A stretch of 45,319 bases of DNA from an uncultured Gammaproteobacteria bacterium (GTDB taxonomy: Bacteria > Pseudomonadota > Gammaproteobacteria > Enterobacterales > Succinivibrionaceae): positions 1-45,319 of the forward strand of contig OMZC01000117.1 of NCBI GenBank assembly GCA_900315395.1. Direction: 5' to 3'. Each line of letters opens with the position of its first letter. Position 1 is the stretch's first letter. This document shows positions 36,340 through 40,746 of the stretch, one piece after another. Under the pieces are notes generated by a model. It made no database searches. It had not been told where the DNA came from and was given only the letters and a program-made list of their open reading frames with translations. Made by a program: the position numbers and the translations under genes.

Positions 36340-38331
36340 ATGACAAAAAACCTAATATTATGGCTAGTCATTGCTGTGATTTTAATGACTCTCTTTGAGT
36401 CATTTAACTCATCAGACAATTCAGGTCGTATGGAAGACTACACTAGCTTCGTAAGAGAAGTGCAGTCAGATCAGATACAGGAAGTTGTATTTGATGGCAA
36501 GGTTATCAATGGTGTTAAAAAGAACGGTGAAAGATTCTTAACTGTTATGCCATTGAGCGATCCTGCAATTATCGACTCTCTTTTATCACACAATGTAAGA
36601 GCATCTGGTACTAAGCCTGAAGAGCAGAGCTTATTGCTCTCAATCTTTGTGTCATGGTTCCCAATGCTGCTTTTAATTGGTGTGTGGATCTTTTTCTCAC
36701 GTCAAATGCAGGGCGGTTCTAAAGGCAATCCTCTGTCATTTGGTAAGTCAAAAGCAAAACTACTCTCTGAGAATCAGATTAAAACAACCTTTGATGATGT
36801 AGCAGGTTGTGATGAGGCAAAAGAGGACGTAGTTGAATTAGTAGACTTCTTAAAAGATCCAACCAAGTACTCTAAGTTAGGAGGCCGCATTCCACGTGGT
36901 GTGTTAATGGTAGGTCCTCCAGGTACCGGTAAAACTTTATTAGCAAGAGCAATTGCAGGTGAAGCTAAAGTGCCTTTCTTCTCAATTTCAGGTTCTGATT
37001 TCGTGGAGATGTTCGTAGGTGTTGGTGCTTCTCGTGTAAGAGACATGTTCGCTCAGGCAAAGAAGAATGCTCCATGTATTATCTTCATCGACGAAATTGA
37101 TGCAGTAGGTCGCAAGCGTGGCGTCGGCATGGGCGGTGGTCATGACGAAAGAGAGCAGACCTTAAACCAGTTACTAGTTGAGATGGATGGTTTTGAAGGC
37201 TTTGAAGCTGTAATTATCATCGCAGCAACTAACAGACCTGATGTTCTTGATCCTGCACTGTTACGTCCAGGTCGTTTTGACAGACAGGTCGTGGTAGGTT
37301 TACCTGATGTACGTGGTCGTGAGCAGATCTTAAATGTTCATGTAAAGAAAGTACCTTTAGGTAAAGATGTTGATACTGCAACTATCGCAAGAGGTACCCC
37401 AGGCTTCTCTGGTGCCGAATTAGCAAACTTGGTAAACGAAGCTGCCTTAAACGCAGCACGTCATAACAAGCGAGTAGTAAGCATGAATGAGTTTGAAGAA
37501 GCTAAAGATAAACTCTTAATGGGTGCTGAGCGCAGAAGCATGGCTATGAATGAGCATGAAAAGATCAACACTGCTTATCATGAGGCAGGTCATGCTATCG
37601 TAGGTAAATTGGTTCCAGAGCACGATCCTGTATACAAGGTATCTATTATCCCTCGTGGCAGAGCTTTAGGTGTAACCATGTATCTGCCTGAACAGGATAA
37701 GGTATCTCAAAGCCGTATCGGTCTGTTATCAAACATTTCTACTCTGTTCGCTGGCCGTATCGCCGAAGAGTTAATGTTTGGTACTGATGCTGTAACTACA
37801 GGTGCTTCAAATGATATTGAAAGAGCGACTCAGATTGCTCGTAGCATGGTAACCCGTTGGGGCTTTTCAAAGAGATTGGCTCCTATGCAGTATGAAAAGG
37901 ACAATGAAGGTTCTGCATACTTAGGTGGTTCATCGACTACTATGATTTCAATGTCAGATGAAACTGCTAAGATCATCGATGAGGAAGTAACAGAAATCAT
38001 CAACTCATGCTACAAGAAAGCTCAGGACTTACTTGAAGCTAATAAGGACATTCTTGAGAATATGAAGGATGCTCTATTAAAGTATGAGACCATTGATGCT
38101 GATCAGATTGACGATTTGATGAATCGTAAAGAAGTTCGCCCACCTCGTAAGGTAGGAGATGCTAAATCTTCAGATCAGAAATCAGATGATAACTCAAAAG
38201 ATGAGAAATCAAATGATGTAAAGACTGAGGATAAGTCAACTGACAATCAGTCTGAAAAAGCTAAGACTGAGAACTCTGACAATGAATCAGAGACAAAAAA
38301 AGACGATAATGACAATAATTCAGAGCAGTAA
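36340..38331 (+). CDS. ftsH: ATP-dependent zinc metalloprotease FtsH
   Basis: The 663-residue inner-membrane AAA+ protease has transmembrane helices near residues 4-20 and 100-121 around a periplasmic domain, Walker A GPPGTGKT starting at 192, Walker [13 protein letters not shown], the SRH arginines (RPGRFDRQ), and zinc site HEAGH at 414-418 with a downstream Asp ([17 protein letters not shown]). It degrades LpxC, sigma-32 and misassembled membrane proteins in E. coli. The C-terminal about 50 residues are extremely charged, repeating Lys/Asp/Ser/Glu, longer and more repetitive than usual. Confidence 0.97.
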
Positions 38332-38370
38332 TTAGACAGGACAACTTGTCAAAATTACCATCGTCTCATG

Positions 38371-38401
38371 AAGGATCTCTTGACAGGAGATCCTTTGCTT
38401 T
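38371..38401 (+). terminator. Terminator-like hairpin between ftsH and folP
   Basis: AAGGATCTC (38371-38379), loop TTGACAG, GAGATCCTT (38387-38395), then TGCTTTT. The loop contains TTGACA, which with TAATGT at 38402-38407 (16-bp spacer) could serve as a promoter for the next gene. Confidence 0.7.
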
Positions 38402-38466: not shown

Positions 38467-39327
38467 ATGAAATTAAGACTGCCAAATAGTAAAAGCCTTG
38501 ATTTGTCTTTTACAAAAGTAATGGGAACCATTGCTTTAGAAGAGAATGATACCCGTTCAATTGAAGATCTAGTTTTACTTGCAAATAGCTATGTTAAAGC
38601 TGGTGCTGAGCTACTGGAGATTGGAGCTAAAACTGGTGCTAACGGCATCAACGAAACTCGTGTGATCTCTGTGTTGTGCGCTGTGATGAACAGTGTAGAT
38701 GTTCCTGTAGCACTAAACTCAAACAACTATGAAATTGTTTCACAGGCTATTAAAGCAGGTGTTTCAATTGTTATTACCACAAACGGTCTGTCCACAGAGG
38801 GCATGATCGATCTTGTCAAAGGATCAGAGGTAGCTGTATGCCTTCACTTTGATCCAAAAGAAAAAATTGAAGATGACAGCGATGTGGTAAGTATCATTTC
38901 TGAATACTACTTTGAAAGAATCGATACTCTTTTAAATGCAGGTATTGAAAGAAAGAGATTACTCATTGACCCATCTGTAGTAAATGCTTCTGTAAGTAAC
39001 AGATTAAGACTGTTAGGAAGACTTGAGAGCTTTAAGAGTTTTGCTCTGCCTATCTGTATTGCTCTGCCTCGTTCTTTACCAAAAGAAGACAGATTCATGA
39101 AAGATAATAGAGTGCTTACCTTAACTACAGCTTTATTCTGTTCATCTGTAAGTCCAGTTCAAATCATCAGAACAGCAGATGTAGGTGAAGTTGCAATTGC
39201 AATTGGTTTTTGGCAGATTATGGCAAGTAAGACTAAGCCATTTAAGTTATCAAAGACTATCGTAAGACGTCTAAGACTTCTACGTGATGCAATTCATGAC
39301 TTAAGAAAGAACAAAGAAAAGAATTAA
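38467..39327 (+). CDS. folP: Dihydropteroate synthase homologue with eroded active site
   Basis: The 286-residue TIM-barrel protein sits exactly where folP sits in Gammaproteobacteria (ftsH-folP-glmM). It keeps the N-terminus (MKLRLPNSKSLDLS then VMG) and C-terminal IIRTADVGEV. Residues for pterin, pABA and phosphate binding in DHPS are changed: after VMG comes TIALEEND (21-28) instead of NVTPDSF; EIGAKTGANG (51-60) replaces D-x-GGESTRPG; LNSN (83-86) replaces VDTS; ITT (103-105) replaces IND; DPSVVNAS (168-175) replaces DPGFGFGK; PRSL (201-204) replaces SRKS; RTADV (235-239) replaces RVHDV. Asp168 and Arg235 remain. It is an intact frame, so it is probably expressed but unlikely to be a normal DHPS. 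The ATG at 38467 is preferred over TTG at 38440. Confidence 0.8.
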   Translation: MKLRLPNSKSLDLSFTKVMGTIALEENDTRSIEDLVLLANSYVKAGAELLEIGAKTGANGINETRVISVLCAVMNSVDVPVALNSNNYEIVSQAIKAGVSIVITTNGLSTEGMIDLVKGSEVAVCLHFDPKEKIEDDSDVVSIISEYYFERIDTLLNAGIERKRLLIDPSVVNASVSNRLRLLGRLESFKSFALPICIALPRSLPKEDRFMKDNRVLTLTTALFCSSVSPVQIIRTADVGEVAIAIGFWQIMASKTKPFKLSKTIVRRLRLLRDAIHDLRKNKEKN

Positions 39328-39393: not shown

Positions 39394-40746
39394 ATGAAAA
39401 GAAAATATTTTGGTACAGACGGTGTACGTGGCCGTGTAGGTCAATATCCTATTACTCCTGATTTTGCAGTAAGACTAGGTTTAGCTGCAGGTAAAGTTTT
39501 AGGAAAGAAACATGGCGGTAAAGTTATCATTGGTAAAGATACTCGTCTGTCAGGTTATATGCTAGAAGCTGCCTTAGAGTCAGGCTTTTCAGCAGGTGGT
39601 ATGTCTCCTGTAATGTTAGGCCCTATGCCAACTCCTGCTGTAGCATATTTAACTCGAGCATTCAGAGCAGACCTAGGCGTTGTAATCAGTGCTTCACATA
39701 ACCCATACTATGACAATGGTATTAAGTTCTTCTCAGCTCATGGTACCAAGTTACCTGATGAGGTTGAACTTGAGATTGAGTCTGTATTAGATGCTAAGGA
39801 TATTCCTTTAGCTGCTTCATCAGACTTTGGTCGTGCCTTCAGACAGGATGATGCTCCAGGTCGTTACATTGAGTACTGCAAGAGTACCTTTGCAAGCCAC
39901 TTCTCATTAGAGGGCATGAAGATTGTTTTAGATTGTGCTAACGGCGCTACCTATCACATCGCTCCACTGGTTTTCAGAGAGTTAGGAGCAACTGTTATCA
40001 CCATCGGTGATAAGCCTAATGGCATTAACATCAATGATGGTGTAGGTTCTACTCATCCAGAGGCTTTAGTTGCTAAAGTCCTTTCAGAAAAAGCTGATCT
40101 TGGTATTGCTTTTGATGGCGACGGTGACCGCGTTTTAATGTGCGACAGTCACGGTAACTTACGTGACGGTGACAACCTTCTGTATATCATTGCTAACGAC
40201 ACTAAAAAGCGTGGACGTCTGCCAGGTGGTGTAGTAGGTACTTTAATGACAAACTTAGGTCTTGAGTTAGCTTTAAAGCGTGAAGGTATTCCTTTCTCTC
40301 GTGCTAAGGTTGGTGACAGATACGTTATGGAGCAGTTGTTAGAGAAGAACTGGACTCTAGGCGGAGAGAACAGCGGTCACATCATCAGCTTAAACCATGC
40401 AACCACAGGTGATGGTATCGTATCAGCACTACAGGTCCTAAAGGCTTGTATGTATGCAGGCAAGACAGTTGAAGAGTTATCTGAAGGTCTGACCATGTAC
40501 CCACAGGATCTTATCAACGTAAGATTAACAGCAGGTCTTGATGTAACTCGTGACGAGAAAGTTCAGACTGTTGTAGCTGAAGTTGAAAAAGAGTTAGGCT
40601 CAACTGGTCGTGTGCTTTTACGCAAATCAGGAACCGAGCCTGTGGTTCGTGTAATGGTTGAAGGTGAGAATGCACAGGACGTTCATACTAAAGCTCAAAG
40701 AATTGCTGATGTGATCATCCATCAGGCAGGCTGTGAAAATGCTTGA
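39394..40746 (+). CDS. glmM: Phosphoglucosamine mutase GlmM
   Basis: The 450-residue alpha-phosphohexomutase converts glucosamine-6-phosphate to glucosamine-1-phosphate for peptidoglycan and lipopolysaccharide. It starts [20 protein letters not shown]; the active-site serine is Ser101 in [16 protein letters not shown]; the metal-binding loop is [11 protein letters not shown]; the sugar-binding motif is GGENSGHII; and the phosphate-binding motif [14 protein letters not shown] lies near the end. It follows folP by 66 bases and precedes secG, as in E. coli. Confidence 0.97.

Follow-up and report, generated by a model that had tools for sequence, protein, structure and literature searches.

The gene that lies between ftsH and glmM in this genome raises a question of identity: it holds the place of folP, the gene for dihydropteroate synthase (DHPS), its reading frame is open, and most DHPS catalytic residues are missing from its product. 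The window, that is, the whole 45,319-nucleotide stretch of DNA that was analysed (contig OMZC01000117.1, from an uncultured member of the Succinivibrionaceae), carries on its + strand, in this order, an rlmE-like gene and ftsH, then the gene in question, and after it glmM and a secG-like gene, the neighbours being named by eye. The gene, here called DIV, starts with ATG and runs through 286 codons without an internal stop, and both the canonical position and the intact frame reported in the first-pass annotation were confirmed. The relocated FolP is called REL below, and the intact FolP at the ftsH-glmM locus of sister genera is called CAN. The features to which the text refers are the following:

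36340..38331, + strand, ftsH, the 5' neighbour of DIV (canonical folP context)
38369..38397, + strand, terminator-like stem-loop between ftsH and DIV (consensus scan only)
38467..39327, + strand, DIV, a divergent DHPS paralog of 286 amino acids without most DHPS catalytic residues
38878..38952, + strand, codons 138-162 of DIV, corresponding to E. coli FolP 155-179; almost invariant in DIV, with more variation in the same-genome FolP
38968..38970, + strand, Asp168 of DIV, corresponding to E. coli D185; kept in 25/25 DIV
39001..39048, + strand, codons 179-194 of DIV, corresponding to E. coli 197-212; almost invariant in DIV, with more variation in FolP
39169..39171, + strand, Arg235 of DIV, corresponding to E. 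coli R255; kept in 25/25 DIV
39172..39324, + strand, basic C-terminal tail of DIV, lengthened
39394..40746, + strand, glmM, the 3' neighbour of DIV (canonical folP context)

The consensus scan returned 8 terminator-like sites in the region, compared with a mean of 3.7 (sd 1.8) in shuffled sequence, and the stem-loop ahead of DIV may separate its transcription from that of ftsH.

Profile searches revealed a member of the DHPS superfamily that scores low against the DHPS family model. DIV reached 63.8 bits against PF00809 (the Pterin_bind superfamily; Pfam gathering cut-off 25.5) and 68.5 bits against TIGR01496, the NCBI DHPS model, for which the cut-off is 162.6. The REL protein of the same genome scored 340.4 bits against TIGR01496, above that cut-off, and 365 bits against the narrower PRK11613, under its cut-off of 455. 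The solved structures closest to DIV were those of E. coli-type DHPS, with an E-value of 4.6e-18 for the single sequence and 6e-45 for a 25-row family profile.

When 25 DIV sequences were aligned with E. coli FolP (L150, used for numbering) and a set of 49 FolP rows (8 CAN, 25 REL, and 16 from other families), all seven blocks listed in the first-pass annotation (NVTPDSF, ESTRPG, the VDTS Asp, IND, DPGFGFGK, SRKS, and RVHDV) were found to be altered; that list had overlooked, however, the anchor residues surviving inside them, namely D185 of DPGFGFGK and R255 of RVHDV (25/25 each) and R220 of SRKS (20/25). The remaining positions are largely lost in DIV, with N22 kept in 1, T62 in 6, R63 in 1, D96 and N115 in none, G189 in 8, F190 and K192 in 1 each, S219 in none, and K221 and H257 in 1 each of the 25 sequences. 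Residues N22, R63, D96, N115, K221, and H257, which we take from published DHPS structures to be catalytic or ligand residues, are kept in 48 to 49 of the 49 FolP rows, and the exceptions at the compared residues among CAN, REL, and outgroup sequences amount to one truncated REL gapped at N22, another truncated REL gapped at R255-H257, and one G189 substitution, likewise in REL. Both loops are also shorter: positions 29-31 of loop 1 (NVTPDSFSDG) form a gap in 25/25 DIV, and positions 66-67 of loop 2 (ESTRPGA) are missing in 24/25. With most catalytic residues gone and a score far under the TIGR01496 cut-off, the earlier statement that this is not a normal DHPS is borne out by the sequence, and DIV would be devoid of DHPS activity.

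DIV has also acquired features of its own. Near-fixed residues without a counterpart in the 49 FolP rows occur at E56 (24/25), P219 (25/25), P223 (22/25), and V251 (22/25), and T256, where the other rows have Ser, is likewise specific to DIV and near-fixed (23/25). The median number of residues after R255 is 49 in DIV, 38 in CAN, 22 in REL, and 21 in the outgroups, and the median net charge of the last 30 residues is +9, +3, 0, and -2, respectively. Since the CAN tail is intermediate (38 residues, +3), lengthening of the tail may have started ahead of the loss of the active site. In the DIV fragment at a contig end of genome G016 (L152), YVTPSEAV stands where FolP has NVTPDSFS, so that its loop 1 is nearer to FolP than that of the window copy.

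A missing folate pathway and a second true folP elsewhere had both been put forward in the first-pass annotation; the latter proved correct. The same genome encodes another FolP with intact motifs, which scored 293 bits against PF00809 in addition to its 340.4 bits against TIGR01496. An organism without folate synthesis through DHPS is not supported, and loss of the de novo pathway was rejected as an explanation, given this intact FolP, FolK in 56/56 Succinivibrionaceae genomes, and FolB in the window's own genome. A full or near-full FolP is present in 53 of the 56 family genomes; G002 and G018 (87% and 89% complete) are without FolP, and G026 has a FolP fragment at a contig end. Among the DIV genomes, 35/38 have an intact or near-full FolP, and one more has a fragment. 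In 19 of the 24 REL loci fetched, the neighbours include at least one of those beside the window-genome copy (TtcA-like and ZupT-like ORFs, by eye), and ftsH or glmM was seen beside REL in none of these 24 loci, several of which are short. The relocated FolP presumably makes dihydropteroate. The expectation that DIV would not respond to sulfonamides in the usual way holds for the protein itself and does not extend to the cell, whose ordinary FolP should still present sulfonamides with their usual target. REL of G031 (L062) and of G004 (L087) lies on long branches (1.67, and 0.99 and 1.07, respectively) and may itself be diverging.

Among the folate steps searched (FolP, FolK, FolB, and the chorismate-binding PabB or TrpE type), the pABA branch alone looks incomplete in the window's genome (92.6% complete), in which no PabB or TrpE-type chorismate-binding protein was found. 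A chorismate-binding match occurs in 13/19 genomes of the window's genus, always as a TrpE-sized frame or a fragment, and is absent from the other 6; a PabB-sized frame was found in 0/19, an assignment made by frame size only, though FolK is present in all. Dependence on external pABA is possible in this genus. A link between DIV and the pABA branch was considered and not adopted, since PabB-sized frames (again by frame size only) occur in g4, g3, and g12, which are DIV genera as well.

DIV is widespread in the family. It was found in 38 of the 56 Succinivibrionaceae genomes, including the window's, from seven genera, with 52 to 94 bits to PF00809 and a stop-free matched part in 38/38, and an N-terminal piece occurs in a 39th genome (G016), where the ftsH contig takes in the first 50 or so codons of a DIV gene and then stops. 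Another 15 genomes have one normal FolP together with MetH and are without DIV, and three (G016, G017, and G031) had neither DIV nor MetH in the initial search of the 56 genomes; the ftsH and glmM contigs of G017 and G031 are broken or missing and are therefore uninformative on DIV. A MetH match was found in 0/38 DIV genomes, many of which carry MetE-like frames of about 364-426 amino acids instead, possibly methionine synthases that work without folate (compare the accessible text of PMC7857596) or other MetE homologs.

The arrangement of the locus was examined in a set of named relatives that includes Succinivibrio dextrinosolvens DSM 3072 and ACV-10, S. faecicola, and Anaerobiospirillum and Avisuccinivibrio MAGs; its 27 loci comprise 25 DIV and two ordinary FolP (L118 and L119). 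Besides the window, 24 DIV loci were fetched: glmM adjoins DIV in 24/24 and ftsH lies on the opposite side in 22/24, and in L042 just 236 bases of contig follow DIV, fewer than the ORF filter requires. In the two loci where ftsH is not upstream (L048, 1-2880, and L116, 1-2400, both of Anaerobiospirillum type), other genes take its place, including in L116 a Sel1-repeat-like one (by eye), and DIV and glmM remain together. DIV thus stays with glmM where ftsH is absent upstream, which argues that it is not kept merely as a spacer between ftsH and glmM. All 8 DIV-less loci fetched (from the 15 genomes; six genera) have an intact FolP between ftsH and glmM, and the folP locus of E. coli has the same ftsH-folP-glmM arrangement. 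Among the matches listed for the DIV profile in 295 genomes of the order, DIV genes scored at least 344 bits and FolP-type proteins at most 210 bits, with none between.

Some further matches were observed in the order. The DIV profile had two matches each in G103 and G201 and three in G251, which may represent additional copies of folP or sul. In a different family of this order, G037:C45:24588-25259 encodes a PF00809 protein (301-aa frame, 99 bits) found beside FolP and MetH matches, and a single match in G037 reached the DIV profile threshold.

Phylogenetic analysis supports descent of DIV from the FolP of its own family. The trees and the entropies described below used 25 of the 38 DIV genes, and the FolP of G031 (REL_L062), with a long branch and an odd composition, was excluded from the careful trees and from the wider-set entropy. 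In the main maximum-likelihood tree of 73 sequences, which has no FolP2 row, DIV forms one clade (100/100), and this clade joins CAN with support of 100/99. When DIV was forced to group with REL, the likelihood fell by 28 units, giving a borderline p-AU of 0.034 for a grouping that had been defined once the first tree was known. In the quick tree, the long stem leading to DIV measures 1.51 changes per site, and long-branch effects on its placement are possible; the placement agrees with the locus. As for REL, a common origin with CAN was not rejected in two tests (p-AU 0.25 and 0.476), and its best match outside the family, among 274 class genomes, reached 310 bits and 56% identity. The quick tree suggested a horizontal origin of REL, but the grouping of REL with CAN was not rejected and the outside match is just 310 bits; both a transfer from another gammaproteobacterium and an old duplication are allowed.

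DIV is under selection and is not decaying, and its evolution is in general faster than that of FolP. A dN/dS near 1 had been proposed as the sign of a decaying gene; in seven pairs drawn from five genomes of the S. dextrinosolvens group, which are not independent of one another, the dN/dS (NG86) of DIV was 0.034-0.052 at a dS of 0.23 to 0.79. For REL it was 0.028-0.064 in the five comparable pairs of the same seven, and dN was lower in DIV in 4/5. Among distant species (8 pairs), dN was higher in DIV in 6/7 comparable pairs, by up to about 2.3-fold, and dS is mostly near or beyond saturation, so that dN/dS at this distance is no main argument; the pair L036/L044 gave 0.375 for DIV and 0.285 for REL. 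The low values between close species, together with the presence of DIV in seven genera, uphold the earlier view that this is not simple decay.

The constraint on DIV has shifted away from the pocket. Site entropies were compared in a matched test of 19 of the 22 genomes with both DIV and REL, three of four close S. dextrinosolvens-group rows having been removed. At 24 positions that we take to form the pocket, the mean entropy of REL was 0.23, compared with 1.16 for random positions (0/20000 draws as low), and that of DIV was 1.60, compared with 1.69 (P 0.30); in the wider set of 25 DIV and 48 FolP sequences, pocket conservation in DIV gave P 0.21. Over the whole alignment, DIV was the more variable protein (mean entropy 1.69 vs 1.16 bits). 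The order was reversed in two stretches: positions 155-179, which we take to be the helix alpha-5 region, had 1.13 bits in DIV vs 1.53 in REL, and positions 197-212, presumably the helix alpha-6 region, had 0.85 vs 1.50. A gain as large was seen in 1/253 circular shifts for both regions jointly and in 3/253 and 11/253 singly, values that serve as a consistency check and not as independent P values, because the two regions were picked from the wider set, with which the matched set shares rows. More than 1 bit of constraint was gained at 24 sites, 16 of which fall inside the 41 of 254 positions that make up the two helix regions. No clear 100-degree helical periodicity was found in the alpha-5 region, and the signal in alpha-6 was broad; the gain in conservation at the C terminus was weak in the matched control (49/253 circular shifts as high). 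In DHPS, alpha-5 and alpha-6 lie on the exterior of the barrel, with alpha-6 at the dimer face, and the corresponding stretches of DIV would likewise form an outer surface. Rather than marking a binding face, their conservation could come from what a remodelled barrel needs in order to fold.

From these observations, we are close to certain that DIV is a conserved paralog that is not a DHPS. For the full account we lean slightly towards a retired DHPS that has become a non-catalytic macromolecule-binding protein at its ancestral locus, with catalysis left to the second FolP. DIV would derive from the folP that the family had originally, and would have stayed where that gene lay. In the common ancestor of one Succinivibrionaceae branch, dihydropteroate synthesis would have passed to a second FolP elsewhere on the chromosome, and the old copy, relieved of this task, could then have shed both catalytic loops and the residues that bind pterin, pABA, and pyrophosphate while being retained as a stable paralog under purifying selection. 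We infer a pseudoenzyme that binds another macromolecule because constraint left the pocket and settled on the alpha-5 and alpha-6 stretches, and because the basic tail lengthened. Candidate partners would be the intact FolP, which DIV might join in a mixed dimer or serve as a regulatory subunit, and also some unrelated protein or a nucleic acid. A new role for the fold, as proposed in the first-pass annotation, is consistent with the evidence, the nature of that role being putative. Against the binding reading stands the retention of D185, R255, and R220, together with three new residues close to the pocket, E56, P219, and T256, that are all but fixed, a pattern that a remodelled ligand site would also explain.

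These same residues are what an enzyme or small-molecule sensor with a new ligand would use, and we regard such a protein as unlikely without dismissing it: D185 and R255 (25/25) and R220 (20/25) could serve a remodelled pocket together with E56, P219, and T256, of which E56 (24/25) and P219 (25/25) are absent from the 49 FolP rows, but the 24 pocket positions as a set are only averagely conserved in DIV (P 0.30 matched, 0.21 wider), unlike those of FolP. A weak or altered DHPS-like activity that would keep DIV in the folate pathway, for example with a pABA analogue, has very little probability. Its ancestry, the retention of Asp185 and Arg255, the apparent lack of PabB in the window's genome, and the count of 0/19 genus genomes with a PabB-sized chorismate-binding frame are compatible with it, but D96, N115, and S219 remain in 0/25 and N22, R63, K221, and H257 in 1/25, both loops are shortened, and DIV is carried by genera with PabB-sized frames (g4, g3, and g12), so that its occurrence does not track the pABA branch.

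It also appears highly improbable that DIV is a slow pseudogene, an inactive relic retained by chance or by its operon position. Such a relic would account for the higher dN than FolP in 6/7 distant pairs and for the greater site entropy (1.69 vs 1.16), but not for a stop-free matched part in 38/38 genomes, a dN/dS of 0.034-0.052 between close genomes with dN below that of FolP in 4/5 pairs, the new near-invariant residues, or the persistence of DIV without upstream ftsH. We give scant credence to a partner in methionine metabolism, in which DIV would replace something lost with MetH. This idea draws on the distribution in the 56 family genomes, where 38 have DIV, 15 have MetH, none was seen with both, and 3 with neither; the exclusion may, however, reflect a single split in the family, and full-length MetE was found in just three DIV genomes (G000, which is the window's, G006, and G015), while no MetE-family match was found in six others (G004, G007, G011, G018, G026, and G068). 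DIV also lacks ligands that, we presume, the methyltransferase domains of this fold need. The MetH link was not adopted, its exclusivity being compatible with one family split and other losses. The retired, macromolecule-binding paralog remains our preferred reading.

Three known systems bear comparison with DIV. The FolP/DHPS of Gammaproteobacteria (TIGR01496 and PRK11613; E. coli folP, 1AJ0) represents its ancestor according to the tree, and the E. coli-type protein shares with it the ftsH-folP-glmM locus, an alignment over nearly the whole length, and the conserved D185 and R255. DIV differs in having lost the catalytic loops and most ligand residues, in scoring under the curated DHPS cut-off, in the movement of constraint off the pocket, and in its longer basic tail. 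Sul1-Sul4 are DHPS homologs that occur beside a chromosomal folP, as DIV does beside another folP, but Sul enzymes are active DHPS and DIV is without the active site; DIV scored 36.0, 24.9, and 20.0 bits against the NCBIfam models of Sul4, Sul2, and Sul3 (cut-offs 600, 575, and 475) and had no match to Sul1.

The third system, actinobacterial FolP2 (M. leprae folP2; M. tuberculosis Rv1207, 2VP8), is likewise a second DHPS-derived protein beside a working FolP. According to the accessible text of PMC1971073, M. leprae folP2 failed to complement an E. coli folP mutant; in high-GC gram-positive bacteria, folP2 clusters with cell wall genes. An excerpt of PMC7809127 describes M. tuberculosis FolP2 as predicted to be defective and its deletion as raising susceptibility to sulfamethoxazole, and the excerpted part of PMC3352284 names FolP2 as a DHPS and nothing more. 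The two proteins are not close: the DIV profile matched 2VP8 with an E-value of 2e-4 and E. coli FolP with 6e-45. By these E-values DIV is not closer to FolP2 than to the FolP of its own lineage, and the tree (without a FolP2 row) puts it with CAN. They also differ in arrangement, since in the DIV genomes it is the altered copy that holds the ancestral locus and the intact copy that lies elsewhere. In the open-licence literature searched, no paper on a folP paralog in Succinivibrionaceae was found.

A "folP" of these rumen and gut bacteria that is named by position and a Pfam match is, at this locus, probably neither a DHPS nor the sulfonamide target. We consider it an even matter whether DIV is a branch-wide pseudoenzyme that acts through its newly constrained alpha-5/alpha-6 surface and basic tail, possibly regulating the replacement DHPS, as an independent parallel of FolP2. 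If true, this parallel would be one in which the change of constraint can be read site by site, and a second example beside actinobacterial FolP2 would allow a shared role to be sought. For the Succinivibrionaceae, the locus offers a clean natural example of an enzyme of core metabolism that was retired without leaving its locus and apparently put to another use: one position holds an intact FolP in the sister genera and the altered protein in the DIV branch, and the intact enzyme of the same genome serves as the control.
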